Positions 17,515 to 47,324 of a stretch of 64,000 nt of DNA are shown here, in pieces. Below the pieces are notes generated by a model, which was not told the origin of the DNA, made no database searches, and worked only from the letters and a program-made list of their open reading frames with translations. Positions within the stretch are counted from its first letter, which is position 1, and each line of letters opens with the position of its first letter. This stretch comes from Virgibacillus sp. SK37. Its GTDB lineage: Bacteria; Bacillota; Bacilli; Bacillales; Amphibacillaceae. Position numbers and translations under genes: made by a program. Where the stretch lies: the NCBI RefSeq assembly GCF_000725285.1, contig NZ_CP007161.1, forward strand, positions 2,022,213-2,086,212. The letters run 5' to 3'.

Positions 17515-17799
17515 ATGTTCATGTTTGAAGATGAAGCGAATATTGTACAAGACCGGGAAGATTTAATTGCGATACTTAAAATGCGCTTTGGGGAAGTGCC
17601 ACCTCAAGTGACAGAACGTATTTATGAGATTAAGTCGTATGATAACTTAGAAAGATTAATACTAGTAGCATCTAATGTCCCTAGTTTATCTATATTCCTA
17701 GAAGAACTAGAGGAAGGTCCAGATAGTTTTAAAATACTTGGTGATCGTTTTGACCCTATAGAAGGACAGCTAGAAAGGGGTGGCAAAATTGAGAAGTAA
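17515..17799 (+). CDS. DUF4351-like small protein of the nar operon
   Basis: 94 residues. The part LKMRFGEVPPQVTERIYEIKSYDNLERLILVASNVPSL resembles the DUF4351 domain found at the end of some Rpn-family nucleases, but no nuclease domain is attached. The function is unknown. Two ATG codons (17515, 17521) are compatible with the ribosome binding site GGGGTGGAG; the first is given. Its stop overlaps the start of narG by 11 bases, so it is translationally coupled to narG. Confidence 0.65.
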   Translation: MFMFEDEANIVQDREDLIAILKMRFGEVPPQVTERIYEIKSYDNLERLILVASNVPSLSIFLEELEEGPDSFKILGDRFDPIEGQLERGGKIEK

Positions 17800-20700
17800 G
17801 AATAAACTATTTGAAGCATTAAAGCATATTAAGCCAGGTGAAAAGATTAACGATAATTGGACAGAAGAGAGCAAGAGGCCAAGAGACTCAGAAGATATTT
17901 ATCGGCGGCGTTGGCAACATGATAAAATTGTCCGCTCAACACATGGAGTAAATTGTACTGGCTCATGTAGCTGGAAAATATATGTAAAAGATGGGATTAT
18001 CACTTCTGAAACCCAGCAAACTGATTACCCTAGTACAGGGGATGACTTTCCGGAATATGAACCAAGGGGCTGTCCAAGAGGAGCAAGTTTTTCATGGTAT
18101 TCTTATAGTCCTATTCGCGTGAAGTATCCTTATATTCGAAGCGATTTATACGAGCTTTGGAAGGAAGAGCGCAGCAAGGCAAGTGATCCGGTACAAGCAT
18201 GGGAAACAATTGTCAACGATCCTCAAAAACGAGAAAAATACGTTAAAGCAAGAGGAAAAGGTGGATTCGTCCGCGCAACATGGGATGACATGTGTGAAAT
18301 CATTGCAAGCGCATCCATACATACAATTAAAAAGTATGGGCCAGATCGTATTGCCGGATTTAGCCCTATTCCTGCTATGTCAATGATTAGTTATGCTGCC
18401 GGCACACGCTTCCTATCACTCATTGGGGGGACAATACTCAGTTTCTATGACTGGTATGCAGATTTACCACCAGCTTCTCCTCAGGTATGGGGCGAGCAAA
18501 CGGATGTACCTGAGAGTGCTGATTGGTATAATTCAAAATACTTTATTATTTGGGGGACAAACCTTCCGCAAACACGTACGCCTGATGCTCATTTCATGGT
18601 AGAGGCAAGATATAATGGTACAAAAGTGGTTGGCGTCAGTCCGGACTATGCGGAATACGAAAAATTCGCAGATATTTGGCTTCCAGCTCGTGCAGGAACA
18701 GATGCTGCTTTAGCAATGGCAATGACACATGTCATATTGAAAGAATTTTATGTTGAAAAAGAAACCCCTTATTTTACTTCCTATGCGAAAAAGTTTACGG
18801 ATTTGCCGTTTTTAGTAACGATTGAAGAAAATGATGATGGTAAGATGCGTTCTGATCGTTTTCTGCGTTCCTCAGATATACAAAAAGATCTTTCGTTAGG
18901 TGAATGGAAAACGCTGGTTTGGGACGAACTTACAAATCTGCTTGAAACACCAAATGGTAGTATGGGTTTTCGTTGGGACGGAAGCAATCAATGGAACTTG
19001 GAATTAAAAAAAGAAGATGGAAGTTCAATTGATCCAAAATTAAGCTTCATTGATCAACCAGATGAAATAGCAATGGTGGAATTCCCCTATTTTGCAGAAA
19101 AAAGTGGGAATACACTGACTCGAGGAGTACCAGTTAAAAAAATTAAAGATATTGATGGAAAAACATTAAAAGTAACTACTGTTTATGATTTAATGATGGC
19201 CCATACGGGAGTCGACCGTGGGTTAGCCGGTGATTATCCAAAGGATTACAATGATCCTAAGCCATATACACCTGCATGGCAGGAGAGTATCACAGGAGTT
19301 AGCAAGAATCATGTTACCCAAGTGGCAAGAGAATTTGCTGATAATGCGGAACGCACAAAGGGAAAATCCATGATTGCAATGGGAGGCGGTACAAACCATT
19401 GGTATCATAGTGATCATATATACCGTGCAATCCTTAATCTTGTATTGTTAACTGGCTCACAAGGTGTAAATGGAGGTGGTTGGGCCCATTATGTCGGTCA
19501 GGAAAAAGTTCGTCCACAGGAAGGTTGGCAACAGGTTGCTTTTGCAAATGACTGGCAAAAACCTCCACGCCTCCAGAATGGTACATCTTACTTTTATTTT
19601 GTAACAGATCAATTTCGTTATGAGACCATACCAGAACATGAGGAAAAAACGGAATGGGCAAGCAAATATGATCAGATGCACCCGGCTGATCTTAATGCAC
19701 TTGCAGTTAGACTAGGATGGCTGCCTTCTTTCCCCCAATTCTCTCAGAACTCCATAAATTTAGTTCAAGAGAGTAGGAAAAGAGGTGCGAAAACAGAACA
19801 AGAAATCATAGATGATGTAGTTAAACAGATTAAAGATGAGCAAATTGAATGGGCAATTGAGAATCCGGATGATCCTAGAAACTTCCCGCGCGTGTTTTTT
19901 AACTGGAGATCAAATTTGTTGGGAGATAGCGGAAAAGGACACGAGTTTTTTGTTAAACATTTGGTCGGCGGAGATAATCAAGTAATGGCAGAGCCGGAAA
20001 ATTCCTGGAAGCCGGATACTGTAAAAGCGGAAGGTGATGGACCAACAGGAAAAGCAGATCTTCTCGTTAGTGTCGATTTCCGCATGACTAGCTCTGGTCT
20101 CTTTTCAGATATTGTTTTGCCTGCTGCGACGTGGTATGAGAAGTATGATATTAGCAGTACAGATATGCACCCATTTGTACATCCTTTTAACGCAGCAGTT
20201 TCACCGCCATGGGAAGCGAAAAGTGACTGGAATACGTTCAGGGAAATAAGCAGGGTATTTTCTGAGTTAGCCGAAAAGCATTTGCCTGCTACTGAAGACC
20301 TGGTTATGTCACCTCTTGCACATGATACCGAAGGAGAAATAGCTCAGTCTTTAGGCAAGATAAAGGATTGGCGTAAGGGCGAGGTTGAGCCTATACCCGG
20401 TAAAACAATGCCATCCTTCAAAGTAGTGCCTAGAGACTATCCAAACGTATATCAAAAGATGACTACGATTGGTGACTTGATTAAGAAAGGTTATGGCGGC
20501 AAGGGGGTAACTATTCCTGGTGAGCCCGTACATGAAGAATTAAGCGCGAGGTTAGGCACCTCTTCCAGGGAAGAAATTGGAAAAGGAAATCCTGATCTGT
20601 ATACAGATAAACAAGCAATTAATGCAATTCTTTTAATGTCTGGTGCAACTAACGGAAAACGAGCTGTTGCAGGCTGGAAATCACTGGAGGCAAAAACCGG

Positions 20701-21472
20701 ACAAAAATTGGAGGAAATTGCAAAAGCAAGAGAAGAAGAGGACTATACGTTAAATGACTTAACCATTCAGCCGAGAACTGCTATTTCAACTCCTGTTTGG
20801 AGCGGGTTGGAAAAAGACCATCGACGGTACTCACCATTTACAGTCAATACAGAATACAACATCCCATGGCGGACATTGACAGGACGGCAAAGTTTTTATA
20901 TGGACCATGAAATGATGCTTGACTTTGGTGAGGGGTTACCGTTATATCTTCCTCCATTAAACTATGACCCGTTTTTAAAGAAAGAGAAAGGAGTCGAGGA
21001 AAGCGGTAAGTCACTGACAGTGCGATATCTTACGCCACACCAAAAATGGGGCATTCATACGATGTTTACTGATACGACGAATATGTCGACATTATTCAGA
21101 GGGTGGCAAACGATTTGGATGAATGAAGAGGATGGTGCCTCTATTGACCTTAAAGATAATGATTTCGTAGAAGTATATAACCGTAATGGTGCAATTGCTG
21201 CTAGAGTTGTATTAACATACCGTATTCCAAAAGGGATGGTTTATATGTATCACGCTCAAGACAGGACTTTAGGCGTTCCAGCAACATCCATTAATAAGCA
21301 GCGGGGTGGTACACACAACAGTGTAACAAGGATTACCTTGAAACCGACACATATGATTGGTGGTTACTCTCAATTGAGTTATGGATTTAATTATTATGGA
21401 CCCACTGGTCATCAACGAGATACCGTTGCAGTAATAAGAGCATTAAAGGAGGTTGATTGGCTTGAGAATTAA
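17789..21472 (+). CDS. narG: Respiratory nitrate reductase alpha subunit
   Basis: 1227 residues, normal length for NarG. It reduces nitrate to nitrite at a Mo-bis-MGD centre on the cytoplasmic face. Near the N-terminus, STHGVNCTGSCSWKIY and RGCPRGASFSWY hold the FS0 4Fe-4S ligands, one of them His. QTDVPESADWYNS carries the likely Asp ligand of molybdenum, and TRTPDAHF follows. The start is TTG at 17789, after AAAGGGGTGG; a GTG at 17780 lies inside that ribosome binding site. It overlaps the preceding small gene by 11 bases and narH by 11 bases. It needs mobA (this window) and NarJ for cofactor insertion. Anaerobic control is expected from the FNR box upstream. Confidence 0.98.
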   Translation: MRSKNKLFEALKHIKPGEKINDNWTEESKRPRDSEDIYRRRWQHDKIVRSTHGVNCTGSCSWKIYVKDGIITSETQQTDYPSTGDDFPEYEPRGCPRGASFSWYSYSPIRVKYPYIRSDLYELWKEERSKASDPVQAWETIVNDPQKREKYVKARGKGGFVRATWDDMCEIIASASIHTIKKYGPDRIAGFSPIPAMSMISYAAGTRFLSLIGGTILSFYDWYADLPPASPQVWGEQTDVPESADWYNSKYFIIWGTNLPQTRTPDAHFMVEARYNGTKVVGVSPDYAEYEKFADIWLPARAGTDAALAMAMTHVILKEFYVEKETPYFTSYAKKFTDLPFLVTIEENDDGKMRSDRFLRSSDIQKDLSLGEWKTLVWDELTNLLETPNGSMGFRWDGSNQWNLELKKEDGSSIDPKLSFIDQPDEIAMVEFPYFAEKSGNTLTRGVPVKKIKDIDGKTLKVTTVYDLMMAHTGVDRGLAGDYPKDYNDPKPYTPAWQESITGVSKNHVTQVAREFADNAERTKGKSMIAMGGGTNHWYHSDHIYRAILNLVLLTGSQGVNGGGWAHYVGQEKVRPQEGWQQVAFANDWQKPPRLQNGTSYFYFVTDQFRYETIPEHEEKTEWASKYDQMHPADLNALAVRLGWLPSFPQFSQNSINLVQESRKRGAKTEQEIIDDVVKQIKDEQIEWAIENPDDPRNFPRVFFNWRSNLLGDSGKGHEFFVKHLVGGDNQVMAEPENSWKPDTVKAEGDGPTGKADLLVSVDFRMTSSGLFSDIVLPAATWYEKYDISSTDMHPFVHPFNAAVSPPWEAKSDWNTFREISRVFSELAEKHLPATEDLVMSPLAHDTEGEIAQSLGKIKDWRKGEVEPIPGKTMPSFKVVPRDYPNVYQKMTTIGDLIKKGYGGKGVTIPGEPVHEELSARLGTSSREEIGKGNPDLYTDKQAINAILLMSGATNGKRAVAGWKSLEAKTGQKLEEIAKAREEEDYTLNDLTIQPRTAISTPVWSGLEKDHRRYSPFTVNTEYNIPWRTLTGRQSFYMDHEMMLDFGEGLPLYLPPLNYDPFLKKEKGVEESGKSLTVRYLTPHQKWGIHTMFTDTTNMSTLFRGWQTIWMNEEDGASIDLKDNDFVEVYNRNGAIAARVVLTYRIPKGMVYMYHAQDRTLGVPATSINKQRGGTHNSVTRITLKPTHMIGGYSQLSYGFNYYGPTGHQRDTVAVIRALKEVDWLEN

Positions 21473-35154: not shown

Positions 35155-36684
35155 TTAAACAGGATACACTCCATGCTTTCGATCCGTAAAGCTAACATTT
35201 TTTGCATCATAAATAGAATAACGCTGGATTAATTCCTCTCTTAAACGATTCGGATCAATCACTGCATCAACAACCATCTCAGATGCAAGCCGGTAAATAT
35301 CAATATTTTCTTTGTATTCATCCTGTTTCTCTTTAATAAAGGCTGGTCTTTCTTCTTCAAGAAGTTCAGCAATTTTATTAGCATATACTGCGTTGACAGC
35401 TGCCTCAGGCCCCATTACTGCAATTTGGGCTGTCGGTAAAGCAATACAACAATCGGGTTCAAACGCCGGGCCGGCCATTGCGTACAATCCAGCACCATAA
35501 GCTTTTCTGACAATTACCGATATTTTGGGCACTGTAGCTTCACTCATAGTTGCCAGCATTTTAGCTCCATGCCGGATGATCCCAGCTCTTTCCACCTTTG
35601 TACCAATCATAAATCCAGGTACATCCACGAGAAAGAGTAATGGGATATTGAAGGCATCACATAACTGTACAAATTTAGCAGATTTATCAGCTGAGTCAGG
35701 GAAAAGCACTCCACCCTTCATCCGTGGCTGGTTTGCAATAATGCCGATAGATTTACCATCTATTCTAGCTAAACCAGTAATTAATTCAGGTGCAAATTTT
35801 TTCTTAATCTCACAAAAGCTTCCCTCATCAATTATTTTTTTAATGAGATCATGCATGTTAAATGGGGCATTTTGATTCTCGGGAATGATATCTTTAATGG
35901 ACTTTTCTATAGATTCCGCTTTTTTAGGTTCGATCTGGGCTGGCTTGTGTCTGAAGTTCTTTGGAAAATAACTTAAATAGTTTTTCGCATATTCAATCGC
36001 ATCTTCTTCGGTTTTAACTAATACATCACCAACTCCAGAAACAGAGCAATGCATTTTTGCCCCGCCCATTTCTTCCAAACTAACTTTTTCACCGATAACT
36101 TTCTCGGCCATTCGCGGTGAACCTAAATACATAGATGCATTACCATCCACCATAATAACTATATCACTAAAAGCAGGGATATAAGCTCCTCCGGCAGCCG
36201 ATGGACCGAATAACAAACAAATTTGCGGAATGCGTCCAGACAATTTGATTTGGTTGTGGAAAATTTTTCCCGCCCCACGTCTGCCTGGGAACATCTCTAT
36301 TTGATCTGTGATTCTCGCACCAGCTGAGTCCACCAAGTAAAGCATTGGTATTTCCATTTTTTCGGCCGTTTCTTGAATACGAATGATTTTCTCTACTGTT
36401 CGTTTCCCCCAGGAGCCGGCTTTTATTGTAGAATCGTTTGCCATTACACAGACATCCTGCCCATGAATTTTCCCAATACCAGTTACAACTCCATCCGCTG
36501 GTAAAGAGCCGTCCATACAATTAGCAAAGAAAGCATCTTCAACATTTAAGCCTTCGTCAAATAACAACTCTAACCTTTTTCGAACAAATAATTTACCTTT
36601 TTCTTCGTTCTTCTGATGATACTTTTCATGACCACCTTTCTCTATATTTTCGATTTTATTCTGCAATACTTCTATATACGACAT
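35155..36684 (-). CDS. Acyl-CoA carboxylase, carboxyltransferase subunit (YngE-like)
   Basis: 509 residues. It moves carboxyl from biotin to an acyl-CoA. Typical segments are the N-terminal PADGVVTGIGKIHG, the crotonase-like FGPSAAGGAYIPAFSDIVIMV, and the later QPRMKGGVLFPDSADKSAKFVQLCDAFNIPLLFLVD. Family members act on 3-methylcrotonyl-, propionyl- or geranyl-CoA. Next to a biotin carrier, a biotin carboxylase, an acyl-CoA dehydrogenase and an enoyl-CoA hydratase, 3-methylcrotonyl-CoA (leucine breakdown) is the favoured substrate. It is the last gene of the operon, 15 bases after the hydratase. Confidence 0.92.
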   Translation of the reverse strand: MSYIEVLQNKIENIEKGGHEKYHQKNEEKGKLFVRKRLELLFDEGLNVEDAFFANCMDGSLPADGVVTGIGKIHGQDVCVMANDSTIKAGSWGKRTVEKIIRIQETAEKMEIPMLYLVDSAGARITDQIEMFPGRRGAGKIFHNQIKLSGRIPQICLLFGPSAAGGAYIPAFSDIVIMVDGNASMYLGSPRMAEKVIGEKVSLEEMGGAKMHCSVSGVGDVLVKTEEDAIEYAKNYLSYFPKNFRHKPAQIEPKKAESIEKSIKDIIPENQNAPFNMHDLIKKIIDEGSFCEIKKKFAPELITGLARIDGKSIGIIANQPRMKGGVLFPDSADKSAKFVQLCDAFNIPLLFLVDVPGFMIGTKVERAGIIRHGAKMLATMSEATVPKISVIVRKAYGAGLYAMAGPAFEPDCCIALPTAQIAVMGPEAAVNAVYANKIAELLEEERPAFIKEKQDEYKENIDIYRLASEMVVDAVIDPNRLREELIQRYSIYDAKNVSFTDRKHGVYPV

Positions 36685-36699
36685 ACAATACCTCCTGAA

Positions 36700-37482
36700 T
36701 TATACCCCTTTATACAATGGTTTCCTCTTTTGTTGAAAGGCTTCTAATCCTTCTAACCTATCTCTAGTCGGAATTGTTTCCTTATAAGAAAGATGCTCGA
36801 TGAGTAGCCCCGTAGTTATGTCTGTTTGCATACCGTGATCAATCGCTGTTTTAGCCTGACGTAGAGCAACAGGTCCATTTTGAGTAATTTTTTTAGCGAT
36901 CTCCAATGCATCCTCCAATAATTTTTCTTTATCTGAAAGCTGTTCTACCAACCCGATAGAAAGCGCTTCATCTGCTGCAACAGGCTTGGCAGTATAGATT
37001 AAGCGCTTTGCCTGGCCGACTCCAATTAGACGAGGTAATCGCTGGGTGCCGCCAGCTCCTGGTATGATTGCCAAAGCTGTTTCTGTAAGTCCCATCTTTG
37101 CATGAGCAGCTGATATCCGAAGGTCACATGCTAATGCAAGCTCCAGACCACCCCCAAATGCAACACCATTTATGGCTGCAATCACTGGACTTTTCATTTT
37201 TTCAACCGATTGGATCGTTGAGCCTATATAACTGACAGCTTCAATAACCTCCGAATCTGTCATTCCCTTCCGTTCCTTTAAGTCAGCACCAGCGCAAAAA
37301 GCTTTTTCACTAGCACCTGTTATAATGGTACAGTAAATATCCGGGTTGTTATTTATTTTGCCTATCACATGATTTAACTGGTCAAGTAAATCTTTCGATA
37401 ATGCGTTTGCTGCTTCCGGTCGGTTAAGGGTTAATACGGCGATATGTTGATCAACGACCTCTAATGAAATGAGTTCCTTCAT
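36700..37482 (-). CDS. Enoyl-CoA hydratase / methylglutaconyl-CoA hydratase (YngF-like)
   Basis: 260 residues, crotonase fold. The oxyanion hole is formed by CAGADLKER and FGGGLELALACDLRI; the catalytic Glu pair lies in GGGLELALA and GLTETALAIIPGAGGTQRL. In the leucine pathway it hydrates 3-methylglutaconyl-CoA to HMG-CoA. The ATG at 37482 follows AAGGAGG; the frame extends to 37512 without a start signal. The gap to the biotin carrier gene is 46 bases, and the lyase gene found at this place in B. subtilis is absent. Confidence 0.9.
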   Translation of the reverse strand: MKELISLEVVDQHIAVLTLNRPEAANALSKDLLDQLNHVIGKINNNPDIYCTIITGASEKAFCAGADLKERKGMTDSEVIEAVSYIGSTIQSVEKMKSPVIAAINGVAFGGGLELALACDLRISAAHAKMGLTETALAIIPGAGGTQRLPRLIGVGQAKRLIYTAKPVAADEALSIGLVEQLSDKEKLLEDALEIAKKITQNGPVALRQAKTAIDHGMQTDITTGLLIEHLSYKETIPTRDRLEGLEAFQQKRKPLYKGV

Positions 37483-37528
37483 AACTGCCTCCTTATCAGA
37501 ATCTATATACAAGAGAAAATCAAAGAAT

Positions 37529-37738
37529 TTATTCTATGATTGCCAGTACGTCCCCTTCGTTTACAAAGTCACCTTCCGCAACCTTCAGCTCTTTTATGGT
37601 ACCTGCCTCTTCCGCAGCAATAGGAATTTCCATCTTCATAGATTCAAGAATAACAACGTCCTGATCCTCTTCTACTTTATCCCCTTCGTTTACAACAATT
37701 TTCCATACGTTACCAGCCATATTTGCAGTTAATTCCAT
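37529..37738 (-). CDS. Biotin carboxyl carrier protein (YngHB/BccP-like)
   Basis: 69 residues, a bare biotinyl domain. The biotin lysine is residue 35 in ESMKMEIP. It carries biotin between the carboxylase (next gene upstream) and the transferase. The protein is about half the length of AccB and lacks its Pro/Ala-rich N-terminus, so it belongs to the acyl-CoA system, not fatty-acid synthesis. GGAGG precedes the ATG; 13 bases separate it from the carboxylase gene. Confidence 0.94.
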   Translation of the reverse strand: MELTANMAGNVWKIVVNEGDKVEEDQDVVILESMKMEIPIAAEEAGTIKELKVAEGDFVNEGDVLAIIE

Positions 37739-37751
37739 AATTAATTCCTCC

Positions 37752-39107
37752 TTAGTTTTTGGTCAATGATGGTAAATAGTGTTCCTCAACAAACGCTGTT
37801 GTGGTTTTGCCTTTTTTGAAAGGTTCACTATCTACGATGTTAAGTAGCATTGGTATATTTGTCTTAATTCCTTCCACCTTATACTCAAGCAAAGCTTGTT
37901 TTAATAAATTAATAGCATCATCTCTATTATTGCCTTTTACTATCAACTTTCCAATCATTGGATCATAAAATGGAGTTACGTCGTACTCACTTGTTACTGC
38001 TATTTCATTTCGCACTGACTTTCCTTTTGGCAACTCCAGTTTTGATATATGGCCAGGTGATGGAAAAAAGGAAACATGATCCTCTGCATAGATTCGTACC
38101 TCAATTGCGTGGCCATCTATTCTTAATTCATGTTGGTCTATCTTAAGTCTCTCATTATTCGCAATAGCAAATTGTGCTTCAACAATATCTGTTCCTGTAA
38201 TTTCCTCCGTTATCGGGTGCTCCACTTGGATTCTTGTATTCATCTCCAAAAAGTAAAAGTTTTCATTTTGATCTACAAGAAATTCTATTGTACCCGCATT
38301 TGTATAGCCTAATGTTTTTGCTGCTTTTACTGCAGCACTTCCCATTTCTTCCCTTGTTTTTTCAGAAATAAAAGTAGAAGGGGCTTCCTCAATAACTTTT
38401 TGGTTCCTTCGTTGAATGGAACAATCTCTCTCAAATAGGTGGACAACGTTACCATGATGGTCGGCTAAAACTTGAATTTCTATGTGCCTGGCATTCTCAA
38501 TTTTCTTTTCCATAAACATCGCTCCGTTACCAAAGAAGGTGAGTGCCCGCTTGGAATTACTTTCAAATGCTTTTGCCAACTCATTATCAGAACGCACAAC
38601 TTGCATTCCGATTCCGCCTCCTCCGGCCGTTGCCTTAAGCATAATCGGATAACCAATTTGCCCGGCAACTTCCAGAGCTTCCTCAACAGATGGCACGGCC
38701 TCGCTGGTGCCAGGAACAACCGGAACACCCGCCTTTTGCATTTCTTTACGTGCTGCAATTTTGTCTCCCATTTGTTTTATAATTTGACTAGAAGGACCAA
38801 TAAATATAATTCCTTCCTTCTTACAAGCCTCTGCAAAGTCTCCATTTTCACTAAGAAATCCATATCCAGGATGTATTGCATCCGCATTTACTTCTTTCGC
38901 AACAGATAATATTTTTTCCGTATTTAAGTAACTCTCATTTACCCTTGGTGGTCCAATTAAATAGCTTTCATCGGCCATGGAGACATATGGAGCTTTTTGA
39001 TCAGCTTCTGAATATACAGCTACTGTTAAAATATCTAATTTCTTACAAGTACGAATAATACGTGCAGCTATTTCACCACGATTTGCTATTAGAACTTTTT
39101 TAATCAT
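37752..39107 (-). CDS. Biotin carboxylase subunit (YngHA/AccC-like)
   Basis: 451 residues. It carboxylates biotin using ATP and bicarbonate. The start MIKKVLIANRGEIAARIIRT, the ATP-grasp Gly-rich loop KATAGGGGIGMQVV, and the catalytic FLEMNTRIQVEHPITEEI are all present. It is a stand-alone subunit that works with the 69-residue carrier and the YngE-like transferase. It is probably a second copy in the genome beside the fatty-acid AccC. It lies 13 bases after the AMP-ligase gene. Confidence 0.95.
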   Translation of the reverse strand: MIKKVLIANRGEIAARIIRTCKKLDILTVAVYSEADQKAPYVSMADESYLIGPPRVNESYLNTEKILSVAKEVNADAIHPGYGFLSENGDFAEACKKEGIIFIGPSSQIIKQMGDKIAARKEMQKAGVPVVPGTSEAVPSVEEALEVAGQIGYPIMLKATAGGGGIGMQVVRSDNELAKAFESNSKRALTFFGNGAMFMEKKIENARHIEIQVLADHHGNVVHLFERDCSIQRRNQKVIEEAPSTFISEKTREEMGSAAVKAAKTLGYTNAGTIEFLVDQNENFYFLEMNTRIQVEHPITEEITGTDIVEAQFAIANNERLKIDQHELRIDGHAIEVRIYAEDHVSFFPSPGHISKLELPKGKSVRNEIAVTSEYDVTPFYDPMIGKLIVKGNNRDDAINLLKQALLEYKVEGIKTNIPMLLNIVDSEPFKKGKTTTAFVEEHYLPSLTKN

Positions 39108-39120
39108 ACGCTCTCTCCTA

Positions 39121-40752
39121 TTACTGAAATTGTTTAACAGCTAGTTCCTTTAACTTAAATTTTTGGATTTTCCCACTCGCGGTCATTGGATATTCGTCCA
39201 CAAATTGTATATACTTCGGTATTTTATGATGAGAGATATTTCCTTTGCAAAATGACTTAATATCTTGAACGGTCGTAGTCGCACCTTCCTTTAAAATGAT
39301 CCAGGCGACAATTTCTTCACCATATTTTTCATCGGGAATACCTGTTACCTGAACATCAAGAATGGTTGGATGCTGATACAGAAATTCTTCTATCTCACGT
39401 GGATAAACATTTTCCCCACCTCGTATGATCATATCCTTCATGCGCCCAGTGATCTCCAAATAGCCATTATCATATAATACGGCGAGATCACCAGTATGAA
39501 GCCAGCCCTCATCATCAATTGCTTCATTGGTTGCAGAAGAATTATTATAATAACCTTTCATAACATGATAGCCTCTTGTCAATAATTCACCTGGGACTCC
39601 CTTTTCCTGCTCTTGCTTTGTTCCAGGTATTACAACTTTAACCTCAACATTAGGGTGTGGTTTACCTACTGATCCTACCTTTAGTTCAATGGGGTCATCC
39701 GTTCTTGTTTGTGTAATTACCGGTGATGACTCTGTTTGCCCATAGGCAATTGTAATTTCTTTTGCACCCATTTCATTCATGACCTTTGTCATTACTTCCA
39801 TTGGACAAGTTGAGCCAGCCATAATACCTGTACGTAAATGAGTTAGATTGTATGAGTTAAAACTTGGATGATTCAATTCTGCAATAAACATCGTTGGTAC
39901 ACCATGAAGTGCTGTACATTTTTCATTATCTACAGCTTGGAGTACCTGTGCAGCATCAAACTGCTCGAGAATTACCATGGTTGCACCCTTCGATACTGCG
40001 GCCAGAACCCCAAGCACACAACCAAAACAGTGAAAAAATGGGACGGGAATACATAATCTATCTTTATTTGTTAGCTTCATACAATCTGCAATTTGGTTGC
40101 CATTATTAACGATATTATAATGTGTCAGCATTACGCCTTTTGGAAAGCCAGTGGTACCTGATGTATACTGCATATTAATTACTTCATCCTGATGCAATGT
40201 CGCTTTTCTAAGATTGAGTTCTTCTTGGGTTATTTCGTCTGCTTTTTGCAAGACTTCATCCCAGTTATATGCGAACGAATAGGTAGTCTCACCAATGATA
40301 ATGATATTTTTTAGCCTTGGAAGCTTTCCTGAATGTAATTTTCCTTTTTCTGCTGTAGAGAATTCAGGACAAACCTTCTTTAAAATGTCAATATAAGATG
40401 TTCCCTTGTAACTCTCTGCCATAATTAAAGTGGTAGCATCAGATTGTTTTAAGAGATATTCCAGCTCTTTTGCTTGATAGTTCGTGTTAACGGTTACAAG
40501 TACAGCACCCATTTTACCTGTGGCAAATTGAGAAGTAAGCCATTCAGGTTTATTATCAGACCATATAGCTACATGCTCACCCTTCTTGATACCGAGAGCC
40601 ATTAAACCTTTTGCGGCTTTATCAACCATCTCGTTAAATTCACTATATGTTTTTCTCATATTTAGTTCTGGATAGATCACTGCTTCCTGGTCTGGATACA
40701 AATTCACTTGTTCTTCTAATAATTCACCAACGGTTATCTTTCTTAGAGACAT
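39121..40752 (-). CDS. Acyl-CoA synthetase, AMP-forming (YngI-like)
   Basis: 543 residues. It activates a carboxylic acid to its acyl-CoA through an acyl-AMP. The P-loop-like AMP motif is YTSGTTGFPKGVMLTH, with YGQTESSP and TGDLAVLYDNGYLEITGR further on and the C-terminal catalytic Lys in PMTASGKIQKFKL. Family resemblance is to medium-chain or 2-methylacyl ligases. In this operon it may activate free isovalerate or a related branched acid. It sits between the dehydrogenase and biotin carboxylase genes, with gaps of 24 and 13 bases. Confidence 0.93.
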   Translation of the reverse strand: MSLRKITVGELLEEQVNLYPDQEAVIYPELNMRKTYSEFNEMVDKAAKGLMALGIKKGEHVAIWSDNKPEWLTSQFATGKMGAVLVTVNTNYQAKELEYLLKQSDATTLIMAESYKGTSYIDILKKVCPEFSTAEKGKLHSGKLPRLKNIIIIGETTYSFAYNWDEVLQKADEITQEELNLRKATLHQDEVINMQYTSGTTGFPKGVMLTHYNIVNNGNQIADCMKLTNKDRLCIPVPFFHCFGCVLGVLAAVSKGATMVILEQFDAAQVLQAVDNEKCTALHGVPTMFIAELNHPSFNSYNLTHLRTGIMAGSTCPMEVMTKVMNEMGAKEITIAYGQTESSPVITQTRTDDPIELKVGSVGKPHPNVEVKVVIPGTKQEQEKGVPGELLTRGYHVMKGYYNNSSATNEAIDDEGWLHTGDLAVLYDNGYLEITGRMKDMIIRGGENVYPREIEEFLYQHPTILDVQVTGIPDEKYGEEIVAWIILKEGATTTVQDIKSFCKGNISHHKIPKYIQFVDEYPMTASGKIQKFKLKELAVKQFQ

Positions 40753-40776: not shown

Positions 40777-41919
40777 CTAACAACCTAGCTGTCTAGCAAT
40801 AACTAATCTTTGAACTTCTGAAGTACCTTCCCCGATTTCCAATAGTTTGGCATCCCGCAAATACCTTTCAACCTCATATTCTCTCATGTAGCCATAGCCT
40901 CCATGAATTTGTATCGCTTGATTCGCTGATCTGAAGGCTGTTTCTGTAGCATACAGTTTGGCATATGCCGCCTCTTTACTAAAAGGCTTATGATTATCCT
41001 TCAACCATGCTGCTTTATGTACCATATTCCTGGCCAGCTCGACCTCCATTGACATATCTGCAAGTTTAAATTGAATGGCTTGAAAGCTGGAAATTGGTTT
41101 TCCAAACTGCTTACGTTCCTTTGCATAGGTCAATGCCTTATCCAATGATCCTTGAGCGATACCAAGGCCTAAAGCTGCAATAGAAATACGTCCCCCATCA
41201 AGGGTATGAAGAAATTGCTTAAAACCTTTTTCAGGATCGCCTAATAAATTCTTTTTAGCCACACGTACATTTGTTAAAACGATCTCTGCTGTGTCTGAAC
41301 CTCTTACGCCCATTTTATCGTAATTACTTGTAATCTTAATGCCTTCAGAATCTGTAGGGACGATAATGGCCGAGATGATATTTTTACCCTTTTCGTTTTT
41401 TCCCGTAACAGCTGTAACAATCACAGTCTTTGCAAAGCTGGCATTAGTAATAAAACATTTTTCGCCATTGATTACATAGTCATCTCCGTCTTCCACTGCA
41501 GTAGTTCTCGTTCCTCCTGCGTCTGAACCGGCGTTAGGCTCTGTTAATCCAAAAGATCCTAGCGCTTTGCCTTCAGCTAAAGGTGTTAAAAATTCTTTTT
41601 TCTGTTCATCTGTGCCAAAATAATAAATTGGACTAGCACCAAGAGATACTGCAGCCGCATAGCTCAGGCCAGTGCTTCCGCAAACCCTTCCTATCTCTTC
41701 TACAGCAAGTGCATACGATAATGTATCTCCACCGGATCCACCATATTTCTCTGGAAAAGGTATTCCCATTAACCCGAGCTCGCCTAACTGATCAAATATA
41801 TCTTTGGGAAATTCTGCCTTTGTATCAATCTCAATTGCTCTTGGACGAATAACTTCTTCAGCAAAGTCACGAACCATTTTTTTAATCATCGCTTGTTCTT
41901 TTGTTAACTCAAAATTCAT
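40777..41919 (-). CDS. Acyl-CoA dehydrogenase (YngJ-like)
   Basis: 380 residues, normal for the family. It oxidises an acyl-CoA to the 2-enoyl-CoA with FAD. FAD-binding FGLTEPNAGSDAGG and FITNASFA are present. The C-terminal base region reads LLEIGEGTSEVQRLV, with the Glu typical of short-chain acyl-CoA dehydrogenases; isovaleryl-CoA dehydrogenases lack Glu at that spot. So butyryl-, isobutyryl- or 2-methylbutyryl-CoA are also possible substrates. AGGAGG precedes the ATG. It is the first gene of the operon; a TetR-type operator sits just upstream. Confidence 0.93.
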   Translation of the reverse strand: MNFELTKEQAMIKKMVRDFAEEVIRPRAIEIDTKAEFPKDIFDQLGELGLMGIPFPEKYGGSGGDTLSYALAVEEIGRVCGSTGLSYAAAVSLGASPIYYFGTDEQKKEFLTPLAEGKALGSFGLTEPNAGSDAGGTRTTAVEDGDDYVINGEKCFITNASFAKTVIVTAVTGKNEKGKNIISAIIVPTDSEGIKITSNYDKMGVRGSDTAEIVLTNVRVAKKNLLGDPEKGFKQFLHTLDGGRISIAALGLGIAQGSLDKALTYAKERKQFGKPISSFQAIQFKLADMSMEVELARNMVHKAAWLKDNHKPFSKEAAYAKLYATETAFRSANQAIQIHGGYGYMREYEVERYLRDAKLLEIGEGTSEVQRLVIARQLGC

Positions 41920-41944: not shown

Positions 41945-41962
41945 AGACCGACTGGTTGGTCT
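41945..41962. promoter_or_regulatory. Probable TetR operator ahead of the acyl-CoA operon
   Basis: AGACCGACTGGTTGGTCT is an imperfect 18-base palindrome of the ACCGACNNGTTGGT type bound by many TetR regulators. It lies in the 78-base gap between the tetR stop and the dehydrogenase start, overlapping the likely promoter. Confidence 0.6.
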
Positions 41963-41997: not shown

Positions 41998-42609
41998 TTA
42001 TTTCATTAACAATTCCTTGTATTTGTCACTTGCAATAGTCTCAGGTTCTAATACAGCATGTAATATTAAATCAACAAAGATATGGCTTATTTCATCAATT
42101 GTTCTGAACCCACCTTGCTGATACCATTTATATGTCCAATTGACCATTCCTAATATTGCCATACCAGTAATATCAACCTGCAGATCTGATCTGAATTCTC
42201 CTTGTTCTTTCCCTTCGTAAAGCGCTTTCATAATGATGTTTTTAAACTGATCTCTTTTTTTCTTAATTAATATTTCATATTTTTCATTCAGGTAAATATT
42301 TTCTTGGTAAAAAACAGATATATGTGGTTTGTAAATGTCAAAGACTTTCACAAAGTCATGGATAATGGTTTGCAACTTCTTAGTTGGTGAGTCATACATG
42401 TTGTTCGCATTTGTGGCCTTTTCTAAAGCATAAGATATGAAAGTGTCGTGGATAACATATAGTAGTTCATCTTTTGTTTTAAAATGATGATAAAATCCAC
42501 CTTTTGATGTGCCAACATCTTCCACAATTTGATTTACTGTGACGCCATGATAGCCTTGTTTTTCAAATAAAAGTAAAGCAGATTGAATAATTTTTTGACG
42601 TAATTCCGT
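41998..42609 (-). CDS. TetR family regulator with apparent ACG start codon
   Basis: 203 residues if translation begins at ACG (42609-42607), seven bases after AAAAGGAGG. The frame is closed upstream by TAA at 42631-42633 and holds no ATG, GTG or TTG before the GTG at 42525. Starting at that GTG would remove the first helices of the DNA-binding domain (ELRQKIIQSALLLFEKQGYHGVTVNQIV) and has no ribosome binding site. The intact domain ends VGTSKGGFYHHFKTKDELL, as in FadR-like repressors of acyl-CoA breakdown; the C-terminal part should bind an acyl-CoA. It lies upstream of and in line with the acyl-CoA operon and likely represses it through the operator at 41945-41962. It could also be a gene damaged by a start-codon mutation. 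Confidence 0.75.
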   Translation of the reverse strand, partial: TELRQKIIQSALLLFEKQGYHGVTVNQIVEDVGTSKGGFYHHFKTKDELLYVIHDTFISYALEKATNANNMYDSPTKKLQTIIHDFVKVFDIYKPHISVFYQENIYLNEKYEILIKKKRDQFKNIIMKALYEGKEQGEFRSDLQVDITGMAILGMVNWTYKWYQQGGFRTIDEISHIFVDLILHAVLEPETIASDKYKELLMK

Positions 42610-42807
42610 TCTAATCCCTCCTTTTAAGCGTTATAAAAAGTTTACCATATTTTTCTGAATACATAAAGTTTTTTAACAAGAAAAACTAAACTACTTTGCT
42701 AATTTAAAGCTTAGGAGTCGGTTTCTTTCGTAGACAAATCATTAGATTAGGTTCAAACCGGACATGGGTCCACTAACAAAGAACCTAACTTGATAATATA
42801 CTTTAAA

Positions 42808-42887: not shown

Positions 42888-45338
42888 TTAATTATTCAAT
42901 CCTTCAAATGGTTTGTAATAGTTAGCTTTTTTCCATACTTCTCTTACTTCTCCATGCTGGTCAGTGTCTATAACAAACGACCCATTACTATATCGATCAC
43001 TTAAAGGTAGCTCCAAAGGAAAAACGGTATGTTTCTCTCCGCTTTCCGTTTGGAAACATAAGGAGTCATTCTCATCTACAACGAATAGGCCTACAAGTAA
43101 ATGTGGTTTGTTTTTTAATTCGCGTAACATAACAAGACCACGTTTAGCACGACTTGTTTTCTCAAAATCTTTCAAATTCATCCGCTTGCAAGCCCCACGC
43201 TGAGTAATTAACACAAGTGAAGGTTCAGATAAATCATCGAAAACCTGCCCACTTATTACACTTTCATTGTCTCTTAGTTGTATTGCTTTTACACCTGCAG
43301 CCCGCTGGCCGACTACAGATATTTCCTCCTCATGATACCAAAGCCCATAGCCCTTATCGGATGCTACAAATATATCTGCATGACCATTCGTTCTGCAAAC
43401 CTGCACTACTTCATCATTATTTCTAACGTTTAGAGCAATTAACGCTTTTGAATATCTTTGAGCATCATACAATGGTAATTCACTACGTTTTACCATTCCA
43501 TTTTTAGTAAAGAAGATCAGGTAATTATCCTTTTCAAAGTCTCTCACCGGTAGACACTGAATAATACGTTCATCTTGATCTATAGAAGCGATATTGGAAA
43601 TGTGTTGGCCTATATCTTTCCATCTAATGTCTGGAAGCTCATGAACTGGTATAGATAGATATTTACCTTTATTTGTAAAGAGCAGGATTTTGTCTGTTGT
43701 ATTCATTTCTATTAAACCTACGAGATGATCTTCATCTTTCATTGCAAAATCTTCCCCATTGGATGCAGCATAGGAACGCAGACTTGTTCTTTTAATATAG
43801 CCGTCTCTGGTAGTTGACACTAGCACGTCTTCACTTGCGACCATGACTTCAATATTTATTTTTAGTTCTTCAATCTGCTCTTCTATAACAGTACGTCTTT
43901 TATCTGAATACTGTTTCTTTAGCTGTCTTAGATCCTTCTTAATTGATTGGAATAATTTTTTCTCACTTTGTAGCATAGCTTCGTATTCTGCTATCTTTTT
44001 TCGAAGTTCATCAGCTTCCTTTTCAAGTGAGGTTATATCTGTATTCGTTAAACGATATAATTGAAGCATAACTATAGCCTCAGCCTGCGCTTCTGTAAAT
44101 TCATATTTAGCTATAATTTGTTTCTTTGCATCTTGTTTATCCTTTGAAGAGCGAATCGTAGCAATTAATTGATCTAATATAGAGATAGCTTTAATTAAAC
44201 CTTCAACAATATGGGCACGGTCTTTAGCTTTCTTCAAATCAAAGTTAATTTGCCTTGTGGCCACTTCTTTCTGATGAAGAATATATGCATCCAAAATATT
44301 AGGTAATGATAATAGCTTTGGTGTTTTGTCTTGAATGGCTACCATATTAAAATGATATGTAACCTGAAGATCTGTATTTTTAAATAGATAATTCAATATA
44401 CCTTCACTGTTAGCATCTTTTTTCAATTCAATCACGATTCGTAAACCTGTACGGTCTGTTTCATCTCGTACTTCAGCAATTCCTTCCACTTTCCGATCAA
44501 TACGCAATTCATCCATTTTCTTAACCATATTTGCTTTATTAACTTCGAATGGAATTTCATCTATAATGATTTGTTTCCGATTTCCACGAACATCCTCAAC
44601 TTTTGTTTTGCCTCGAACTATTATCTTTCCTCTACCTGTTTCATAAGCTTTTTTGATTCCTTCAACACCTTGAATAATTCCACCGGTAGGAAAGTCTGGC
44701 CCGTTAATAACCTTCATTAATTGATCTAATGTGGCTTCTGGGTTATCAATCTTCATAATGACAGCATCAATAACCTCATCAAGATTATGTGGCGGAATAT
44801 CTGTTGCATAACCTGCTGAAATCCCTGTGGAACCATTGACAAGCAAATTAGGAAATTTAGCAGGGAGAACTACTGGCTCTGCATCCGTATCATCAAAGTT
44901 TGGAATGAAATCAACAGTTTCTTTATCTATGTCCCGTAAAAGTTCTGAAGCTATACTTGAAAGTCTGGCCTCCGTATAACGCATAGCAGCAGGCGGGTCA
45001 CCGTCAATACTACCATTATTTCCGTGCATTTCGATCAACAGATTCCTCATCTTCCAATCTTGACTGAGTCGAACCATCGCCTCGTACACGGATGAGTCAC
45101 CATGTGGATGGTAATTACCTATTACTGTACCAACGGTTTTTGCGGACTTACGAAAATTTTTATCGTGTGTATTTCTTTCTTCATGCATTGCATACAAAAT
45201 ACGGCGTTGAACCGGCTTCAGTCCATCACGAGCATCTGGCAGCGCACGATCTTGAATTATATATTTACTATACCTTCCAAACCTGTCACCAATAACTTCT
45301 TCTAGTGGAAGGTCTAAAAACGTTTCTGGTTGTGACAA
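42888..45338 (-). CDS. parC: DNA topoisomerase IV subunit A
   Basis: 816 residues. It cuts and rejoins DNA to unlink daughter chromosomes. The catalytic Tyr is residue 121 in [12 protein letters not shown]. The quinolone-resistance region reads [20 protein letters not shown], with the wild-type Ser82 and Glu86, so no common resistance change is present. The C-terminal beta-propeller repeats cover about 500-816. The start is TTG at 45338 after AAGGGGGGG. It follows parE by 27 bases. Confidence 0.97.
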
Positions 45339-45365: not shown

Positions 45366-47324
45366 TTATATTTCTGTATGAATTTTATCGTTATCCAGGA
45401 TATTTGCGTCGTCTTCCAAACCAAACGCAACATTGCCTTCGATCCACTTTCTTCTTGGCTCTACTTTATCGCCCATCAATGTAGTTACCCTTCGTTCAGC
45501 CCTTGCAAGGTCTTCCAGTGTTACACGGATTAATGTACGTGTATCAGGGTTCATGGTTGTTTCCCATAATTGATCTGCATTCATTTCACCAAGGCCTTTG
45601 TAGCGTTGAATAACATATCCGCTCTTAAATTCTTTAAGCGCCTTTTTCATTTCTCCTTCTTCCCAAGCGTATTTAATTTGTTCTTTCTTTCCTTTTCCCT
45701 TGGAGATTTTGTAAAGCGGAGGCAGGGCAATATATATCTTACCATTTTCAACTAGAGGACGCATATATCGATAAAAAAATGTTAATAACAGTACTTGAAT
45801 GTGTGCTCCATCTGTATCTGCGTCTGTCATAATAATAATTTTATCATATTGTGCATCTTCCAAGTCAAAATCACCACCGACACCTGCGCCGATCGTGTGA
45901 ATGATAGTTGAAATTTCTTCATTTTTAAATACATCCTGCAGCTTAGCCTTTTCTGTATTGATAACTTTTCCTCGCAAAGGTAATACAGCCTGAAATTTCC
46001 GGTCTCTCCCTTGCTTTGCGGAACCACCTGCAGAATCACCCTCCACTAAATATAATTCATTTTTTTTAGGGTTTTTTGATTGCGCAGGAGTTAGTTTTCC
46101 ACTTAACATGGTATCTTTTCTACGCTTCTTCTTTCCAGTCCTTGCTTCTTCACGTGCTTTTCTTGCCGCTTCACGTGCCTCTTTCGCTTTAATGGATTTT
46201 TTAATCAAAAGTCCTGCTACCTCTGGATTTTCTTCAAGAAAATAGGATAATTTTTCGGACACTACTCCATCTACTGCTGAGCGTGCTTCGGTCGTACCAA
46301 GTTTTCCTTTTGTTTGGCCTTCAAATTGCAGGCTTTCTTCAGGAACACGGACAGAGACAATAGCAGTAAGCCCCTCCCTTATATCTGTTCCTTCCAGATT
46401 TTTTTCTTTTTCTTTTAGTAAATTTGCTCTCCTGGCATAGTCGTTAAATGTCCTTGTTATCGCTGTACGAGCTCCAGATTCATGGGTTCCGCCATCTCTT
46501 GTACGTACATGATTAACAAAAGAAAGCATACTTTCTGCATATCCGTCATTAAACTGAAATGCAAAATCAACTTCTATCCCTTGAGCTTCACCCTCAAAAG
46601 AAACAACTGGATGCAAAGCATCTTTTTCTTCATTCAAGTAATTTACAAAGGATTCTAATCCATCGGGGAATTCGTAGGTCACATGTGAATCTTGTCGTAA
46701 ATCATTTAATTCAATATGAAGTCCTTTGAGTAAAAATGCAGCTTCACGCAGTCGCTCTGACAAGGTTTCGAAGTCATACACGGTGGCAGAAAATATTGCT
46801 GGGTCTGGTTTAAAATGAATGGTAGTACCTTTCTTTCTCGTACTCCCTTTCTTTTCTAAGGAACTTACTGGCTTTCCTCCATTTTCAAAACGTTGAAAAT
46901 ATGTATGACCATCTCTATGGATAGTTACTTCTAACCATTCAGATAATGCATTTACTACAGATGCGCCAACCCCATGTAGTCCGCCACTTGTCTTGTAACC
47001 ACCTTGTCCGAACTTTCCTCCGGCATGAAGAATGGTAAATATTACTTCTGTTGTCGGTTTGCCCGTGCTATGCATACCTGTTGGGATTCCACGACCATTA
47101 TCTTCTACTGAAATACTATTGTCTTTATGTACAGTAACTTTTATAACATTGCCATATCCTGCCAATGCTTCATCGACCGCATTGTCTACGATCTCGAATA
47201 CTAAATGATGCAATCCACGCATATCTGTGCTTCCAATATACATACCAGGTCTTTTTCGGACTGCTTCCAAACCCTCAAGTACTTGGATAGATTCATCATT
47301 ATAATTAACTGGTTTCTTTGCCAA
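45366..47324 (-). CDS. parE: DNA topoisomerase IV subunit B
   Basis: 652 residues. The ATPase half: EIVDNAVDEALAGYG (ATP-binding Glu/Asn), DNGRGIPTGMH, and GGLHGVGASVVNAL. The Toprim half: VEGDSAGGSAKQGRDRKFQAVLPLRGK and MTDADTDGAHI. It works with ParC to decatenate chromosomes. The start is TTG at 47324, with AGGAG 11 bases upstream. A promoter with a LexA-like box is 70 bases upstream. The parE-parC order and the yneT gene upstream match B. subtilis. Confidence 0.97.
   Translation of the reverse strand: MAKKPVNYNDESIQVLEGLEAVRKRPGMYIGSTDMRGLHHLVFEIVDNAVDEALAGYGNVIKVTVHKDNSISVEDNGRGIPTGMHSTGKPTTEVIFTILHAGGKFGQGGYKTSGGLHGVGASVVNALSEWLEVTIHRDGHTYFQRFENGGKPVSSLEKKGSTRKKGTTIHFKPDPAIFSATVYDFETLSERLREAAFLLKGLHIELNDLRQDSHVTYEFPDGLESFVNYLNEEKDALHPVVSFEGEAQGIEVDFAFQFNDGYAESMLSFVNHVRTRDGGTHESGARTAITRTFNDYARRANLLKEKEKNLEGTDIREGLTAIVSVRVPEESLQFEGQTKGKLGTTEARSAVDGVVSEKLSYFLEENPEVAGLLIKKSIKAKEAREAARKAREEARTGKKKRRKDTMLSGKLTPAQSKNPKKNELYLVEGDSAGGSAKQGRDRKFQAVLPLRGKVINTEKAKLQDVFKNEEISTIIHTIGAGVGGDFDLEDAQYDKIIIMTDADTDGAHIQVLLLTFFYRYMRPLVENGKIYIALPPLYKISKGKGKKEQIKYAWEEGEMKKALKEFKSGYVIQRYKGLGEMNADQLWETTMNPDTRTLIRVTLEDLARAERRVTTLMGDKVEPRRKWIEGNVAFGLEDDANILDNDKIHTEI

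Follow-up and report, generated by a model that had tools for sequence, protein, structure and literature searches.

A TetR-type regulator gene of Virgibacillus sp. SK37 with strong comparative evidence for a conserved ACG start codon

The window analysed here, a stretch of 64,000 nucleotides from Virgibacillus sp. SK37, carries on its minus strand a gene for a TetR-type regulator that raises the question of where its translation is initiated. The reading frame, which ends at 41998, is open from a TAA at 42633-42631, and the first in-frame ATG, GTG or TTG is a GTG at 42525-42523. The region comprises the following features:

41998..42609, minus strand: tetR-type regulator of 203 amino acids, read from a predicted ACG start (open frame, Pfam and family matches)
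42607..42609, minus strand: predicted ACG start codon (ACG in 77 of 81 comparable loci from two families)
42617..42621, minus strand: Shine-Dalgarno core GGAGG, spaced 7 nt from the ACG (sequence and conservation)
42631..42633, minus strand: in-frame TAA, the upstream bound of the reading frame (sequence)
42644..42649, minus strand: putative -10 hexamer TATGGT (loose pattern in relatives)

The reading frame and its leader

The initial annotation had noted that the 105 bases between the TAA and the GTG are devoid of in-frame ATG, GTG or TTG codons, and that an ACG lies at an ideal distance from a ribosome-binding sequence. Both observations were reproduced: GATTAGA separates AAAAGGAGG from the ACG at 42609-42607, which amounts to a spacing of 7 nt.

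Conceivably, translation could start at the GTG (42525), which is the first canonical codon and the start chosen for this gene by the mechanical ORF listing. This would yield a protein of 175 amino acids with an incomplete helix-turn-helix. However, the residues ahead of the GTG match the Pfam domain TetR_N from profile position 1 onwards (55.6 bits against a cut-off of 24; profile positions 1-44 of 47), and this position corresponds to residue 8 when counting from the AGA at 42612. A complete helix-turn-helix therefore requires a start that lies before the GTG, as had been claimed initially. The C-terminal domain TetR_C_24 was likewise matched (94.3 bits, cut-off 26.4), so that both the N-terminal helix-turn-helix and the C-terminal domain exceed their Pfam cut-offs and place the protein in the TetR family. 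Taken with the GGAGG positioned for the ACG, and with the equal constraint on codons at either side of the GTG that is described below, this makes a start at the GTG very improbable. The same listing gives TTG as the first start codon of both the parC-like gene (42888-45338) and the parE-like gene (45366-47324).

By itself, the combination of GGAGG and ACG is a weak signal and not a rare one. The pattern GGAGG-N6-8-ACG occurs three times in the window against 1.21 occurrences expected from shuffling, and at least three were found in 13 of 100 shuffles. A second occurrence (20940-20955) is located antisense within a large ORF (17780-21472) and leads into no notable open frame, and the third lies at 112-125. 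The significance of the ACG depends on its conservation rather than on the lone site.

In the 41 ACG-bearing loci from the family of the window's genome, which are introduced below, the G residues at positions -12, -9 and -8 are invariant. Across the 55 ACG rows of a wider sample, AGGAGG or GGAGG is found 7-9 nt 5′ of the ACG in 41, and the remaining 14 have other G-rich matches. Further upstream, a loose -10 pattern (TATGNT or, failing that, TRTGNT, no more than 70 nt away) was detected, as a raw count, in 41 of the 41 family rows, and in 31 of them a TATGNT-like hexamer is located 34-35 nt before the ACG. This hints at a promoter followed by a short leader, and the TATGGT at 42644..42649 would be the local -10 element; a scan with the sigma-70 consensus did not list this hexamer. 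Sites resembling catabolite-control elements precede tetR in nine of the 41 rows when a loose pattern is applied. The fold of the window's own leader is nothing unusual (z = 0.73), and a regulatory leader hairpin is thus unsupported in this sequence.

The aligned codon in related genomes

The one other genome of the genus encodes a protein with 94% identity, and the best named record, from Virgibacillus halodenitrificans JCM 12304, is also 94% identical. Within the family of the window's genome, 63 of 159 genomes matched the protein at E <= 1e-40, and all 63 loci were read. A locus was regarded as having no canonical start nearby if ATG, GTG and TTG were missing from the six codons around the start. 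By this definition, 41 loci carry an aligned ACG and no canonical start nearby, 19 have a canonical codon and three have neither. The canonical loci comprise 15 with ATG, three with GTG ACG and one with TTG AGA ACG; in nine of the 15 the ATG is situated exactly one codon before the aligned position (for example ATG ACG, ATG TCG or ATG TCT).

To this set we added a sample of the order, in which 142 of 397 genomes had a match; four of these belong to the window's family, and 86 loci were read from the other 138. After removal of two duplicates, the pooled set comprised 149 distinct loci. A canonical codon is absent between the in-frame stop and residue 9 in 38 of them, of which 36 show ACG at the same codon. 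By the six-codon definition, ACG without a canonical codon nearby was found in 55 of the 149 loci, distributed as 41 in the window's family, 14 of 15 in a second family (f29) and none of 71 elsewhere. We refer to f29 as the Peribacillus family, because Peribacillus records share its group in the gene tree and its start-region sequences. Matches were present in 42 of its 43 genomes, and all 42 loci were read; the 41 distinct ones include 36 with ACG, four with a canonical codon and one with neither.

When the two families are pooled, 81 of 104 distinct loci have no canonical start within the six codons, and in 77 of the 81 exactly this codon is ACG (41 of 44 in the window's family and 36 of 37 in the Peribacillus family). 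In 53 of the 77, the stretch that begins at the in-frame stop and ends at residue 9 is entirely free of canonical codons. The same codon is thus found at the same position in many species (77/81 and 36/38), as is to be expected of a conserved non-canonical start. Nevertheless, ACG is not essential to the gene, since a canonical codon is present near the start in 23 of the 104 loci, and four contain neither such a codon nor ACG. Orthologues that lack both a nearby canonical codon and the aligned ACG (L066, L072, L081, L095, L133, L224 and L291) may start at ATT, ATC, ATA or a shifted ACG, and non-canonical initiation appears to be a repeated feature of this gene. Among 80 named records, a set that overlaps the other loci read, ACG was seen by eye in 31, assigned to Virgibacillus, Lentibacillus, Oceanobacillus, Ornithinibacillus, Peribacillus and, in one instance, Roseburia. 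The latter locus (L190, recorded as Roseburia sp. 1XD42-34, Lachnospiraceae) sits in the Virgibacillus part of the gene tree, and the name or the assembly of this record is probably wrong.

The initial annotation had left open two readings: a true ACG start (or, in brackets, ATT), or a start-codon mutation that has inactivated the regulator and derepressed the operon. A sequencing error for ATG is a further possibility, as a single wrong base would suffice. The comparison of the codon with close relatives, which the annotation had asked for, shows that ACG is shared by independent assemblies of many species, including V. halodenitrificans JCM 12304, and the chance that it is an error is practically nil. 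An inactivating mutation in this strain would explain why no canonical start codon lies upstream of the helix-turn-helix. It is, however, at odds with the presence of ACG in 77 of 81 comparable loci from two families and with the intact frames, as the frame from the ACG spans at least 189 amino acids in all 77 loci. The search output showed an in-frame TAA within the matched stretch of L275, L284, L285, L071 and L083; since the frames of L275, L284 and L071, which were counted as ACG loci, still reach at least 189 amino acids, their TAA stops must be near the end.

The codons upstream of the GTG also behave as coding sequence. Between the window's genome and genome G001, six synonymous and no non-synonymous codon changes were observed from the ACG to the GTG, against 33 synonymous and 13 non-synonymous changes in the remainder of the gene. 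When the window's gene was compared with the 40 other ACG rows of its family, codons 3-29 showed 362 synonymous and 261 non-synonymous changes, and codons 30-185 showed 2282 and 1742, respectively. The codons before the GTG are therefore constrained equally with the rest of the gene. Combined with the conservation of the palindrome described in the next section, these data make an inactive gene and a derepressed operon extremely improbable. Of the two initial readings, the true ACG start is strongly supported and the inactivating mutation is rejected; the bracketed ATT found no support.

A start at another non-canonical codon (ATT, ATA or CTG), or entry into the frame from an upstream ORF, was also considered. 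ATA or CTG does directly precede the ACG in some relatives; CTG is found there in two of the 41 ACG rows of the window's family, where it could serve as the start. The four loci of the two families that have neither ACG nor a canonical codon may themselves use ATT, ATC or ATA, and the window contains a short out-of-frame ORF whose TAG ends just 5′ of the ACG. On the other hand, the codon preceding the ACG varies across the 55 ACG rows (ATA, AGA, CTT, GGA, TAA, GTA and others). The position of the proposed ATT holds ATT in seven of these rows, the others having TTT, GTT, GTC, CTT, TGC, AGT and further codons. Furthermore, three loci (L064, L068 and L069) have a TAA immediately before the ACG, and an in-frame upstream start is therefore impossible there. 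As judged by eye, the ATG of the short ORF is shared with G001 and is absent from rows such as L024. Together these observations render a start at another codon, or entry from upstream, quite improbable.

Could the ACG be conserved for another reason? As the 77 genes were selected for ACG, its constancy among them follows from the choice of the set, and 77/81 and 36/38 are the independent figures. As a reference for codon constancy, we inspected columns with an invariant residue of degenerate codon usage. None of 51 such columns holds to one codon in the 77 genes, and by family the numbers of one-codon columns are zero of 63 (window's family) and two of 76 (Peribacillus family). The conserved threonine columns of the 77 genes contain all four codons, and in the 55 ACG genes of the order sample ACG accounts for 130 of 564 other threonine codons. 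Conservation as a binding site in DNA or RNA would be in line with the fairly conserved A at -1 (1.47 bits) and G at +3 (1.3 bits) in the window's family. Yet the flanks in the Peribacillus family are different (often CTT ACG GAG), the ACG being what both families share; in addition, the leader fold is ordinary, and among the 41 ACG rows from the window's family none showed an operator-like palindrome ahead of tetR. A binding site therefore has very little chance of being the correct explanation.

Two controls gave canonical starts. The adjacent acd gene has an ATG as its start in all 49 loci that could be read (51 were given). Of 11 TetR paralogues tried from the window's genome, BLAST anchored five, each of which has an ATG, and yielded no hit for the other six. 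That the tetR-type gene starts at ACG is, on this comparative evidence, strongly supported.

The acyl-CoA operon and its palindrome

The tetR-type gene is flanked by a parC-like gene and by an operon for acyl-CoA metabolism, which we take to resemble the yng operon of B. subtilis for leucine-type acyl-CoA breakdown:

42888-45338: parC-like gene upstream of tetR, named from its sequence
41945..41962, minus strand: probable operator AGACCAACCAGTCGGTCT, preceding the acyl-CoA dehydrogenase gene (conserved 18-bp palindrome)
40777..41919, minus strand: acyl-CoA dehydrogenase-like gene (acd), ATG start, first gene of the probable target operon (NCBIfam hits, all below cut-off)
35155..40752, minus strand: remaining operon, with acyl-CoA ligase, biotin carboxylase, biotinyl carrier-like protein, enoyl-CoA hydratase and carboxyltransferase
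37529-37738, minus strand: biotinyl carrier-like protein, named by sequence only

The biotin carboxylase (NF006367) and the enoyl-CoA hydratase (NF005802) score above their NCBIfam cut-offs, and the names of the acyl-CoA ligase and the carboxyltransferase derive from hits below cut-off.

The palindrome AGACCAACCAGTCGGTCT is located in the 78-bp gap between tetR and acd, and we regard it as the likely operator of the TetR-type protein, which would act as a repressor. A scan of the genome returned the site at 41945..41962 without mismatches and no second site with fewer than three mismatches; looser matches were not above a reversed-pattern control. The pattern recurs in 36 of 49 readable tetR-acd gaps, and a close variant was recognised by eye in 12 of the 13 others. 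In L218, no variant was seen by eye within the printed part of the gap. A loose palindrome search revealed no operator-like palindrome upstream of tetR itself in any of the 41 ACG rows of the window's family. One member of this family with an ATG start (L076) does have such a palindrome upstream of tetR, and autoregulation may therefore exist in some relatives.

At the level of sequence, the comparison thus demonstrates an ACG start that is conserved, a gene that is intact, and a palindrome that is both conserved among relatives and unique in the genome.

Initiation at ACG and comparable systems

A single C-to-T transition would convert the ACG into ATG. Such exchanges are common in this gene, as 9621 of 27389 pairwise two-fold sites show a C/T difference among the ACG genes of the window's family, and the persistence of ACG in spite of this suggests selection against ATG. 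In the study by Belinky et al., switches from GUG to AUG (0.0398) exceed those from AUG to GUG (0.0059), so that AUG seems in general to be easily regained (PMC5622118).

As to its origin, a gene tree was built by a quick method from the 171 distinct proteins among 229 loci read, identical proteins being dropped. On this tree the ACG rows occupy two positions, one in the window's family and one in the Peribacillus group, and families with ATG are placed between them, although 60 of the 168 inner branches are open; the fewest changes among three start states on this tree were 15. Many ATG relatives have threonine or serine as the next residue (ATG ACG, ATG TCG or ATG AGT), and two loci of the Peribacillus family read ATG GTT ACG and ATG GCT ACG. 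We infer from these arrangements that the ACG was formerly an internal threonine codon, which would have become the start after loss of the ATG on at least two occasions.

ACG mismatches the anticodon of the initiator tRNA at its second base. A special initiator tRNA with a CGU anticodon was considered and rejected: the four candidate matches to an initiator-type anticodon stem carry CAT (two), AGC (one) and TAC (one), and none carries CGT. In the window's genome, infC (L173) itself, judged by analogy to infC genes already known, seems to start at ATT after a GGAGG. Because of this infC start and of stems with CAT but not CGT, reading of a mismatched codon by the ordinary initiator tRNA is the simplest interpretation. 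An in vitro study reports that IF3 accepts nothing but Watson-Crick pairs at the first and second base of the start codon (PMC10158994); this would predict very poor initiation at ACG and makes control by IF3 possible.

We therefore consider it very likely that translation truly begins at the ACG and that selection preserves the weakness of this start, which would keep a repressor serving a single operator at a low level. Translation from the ACG at 42609-42607 would be initiated by the ordinary initiator tRNA, aided by a near-perfect Shine-Dalgarno sequence at good spacing, and selection would retain this weak start. The regulator's sole recognisable operator in the genome would be the one adjoining the acyl-CoA operon, none being recognised upstream of the regulator's own gene, and with one operator few regulator molecules would be needed. 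The weak start would cap their supply, and modest amounts of inducer would then open the operon. Scarcity of the regulator through its ACG start is plausible, and its low level would be tuned by weak initiation. Conceivably, IF3 would set this level. The farther-reaching idea that the ACG is a specific IF3-gated start, evolved at least twice from an internal threonine codon and coupling acyl-CoA catabolism to the initiation machinery, is tentative and, in our judgement, unlikely. If true, the supply of the regulator, and hence acyl-CoA catabolism, would be linked to the state of that machinery.

Among regulators of acyl-CoA metabolism, the protein resembles FadR of Bacillus (NCBIfam NF053878) and other TetR-type acyl-CoA regulators in its family and its metabolic context. 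With 57.1 bits it remains far under the cut-off of 200 of the FadR equivalog and falls outside this group; its best match of solved structure is 3vpr, a TetR-family regulator. With respect to its start, the gene shares with the known cases a strong Shine-Dalgarno sequence at proper spacing. Like infC, which starts with AUU or AUC and, judging from the ATT noted above, seems to do so in the window's genome as well, it has a non-canonical start. In infC, IF3 exerts autocontrol through that codon (PMC5472188). However, the product of infC is IF3 itself, which closes a feedback loop, whereas the present gene encodes a local TetR-type regulator, and the anticodon mismatch is at the third base in infC but at the second in ACG. 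The second case, sigR of Streptomyces, likewise encodes a regulator, and its non-canonical start is conserved: the same paper reports GTC in 32 of 34 species and GTT in two, an extended ribosome-binding site, repression by IF3, and misannotation of the start in available genomes (PMC5472188). It differs in that sigR encodes a sigma factor, starts with GTC and is described there for Streptomyces only, whereas the tetR-type gene combines ACG with a TetR-type regulator in two bacterial families. Gene callers limited to ATG, GTG and TTG would probably miss the true N-terminus in ACG species.

Conserved non-canonical starts as such are already known from infC and sigR; among the literature matches listed, none described an ACG start that is conserved in a bacterial gene. 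The retention of ACG across two families, in spite of the easy route to ATG, provides natural evidence that weak initiation itself is selectable, and the tetR-type leader can serve as a simple reporter with which to study second-base mismatches in organisms other than E. coli.
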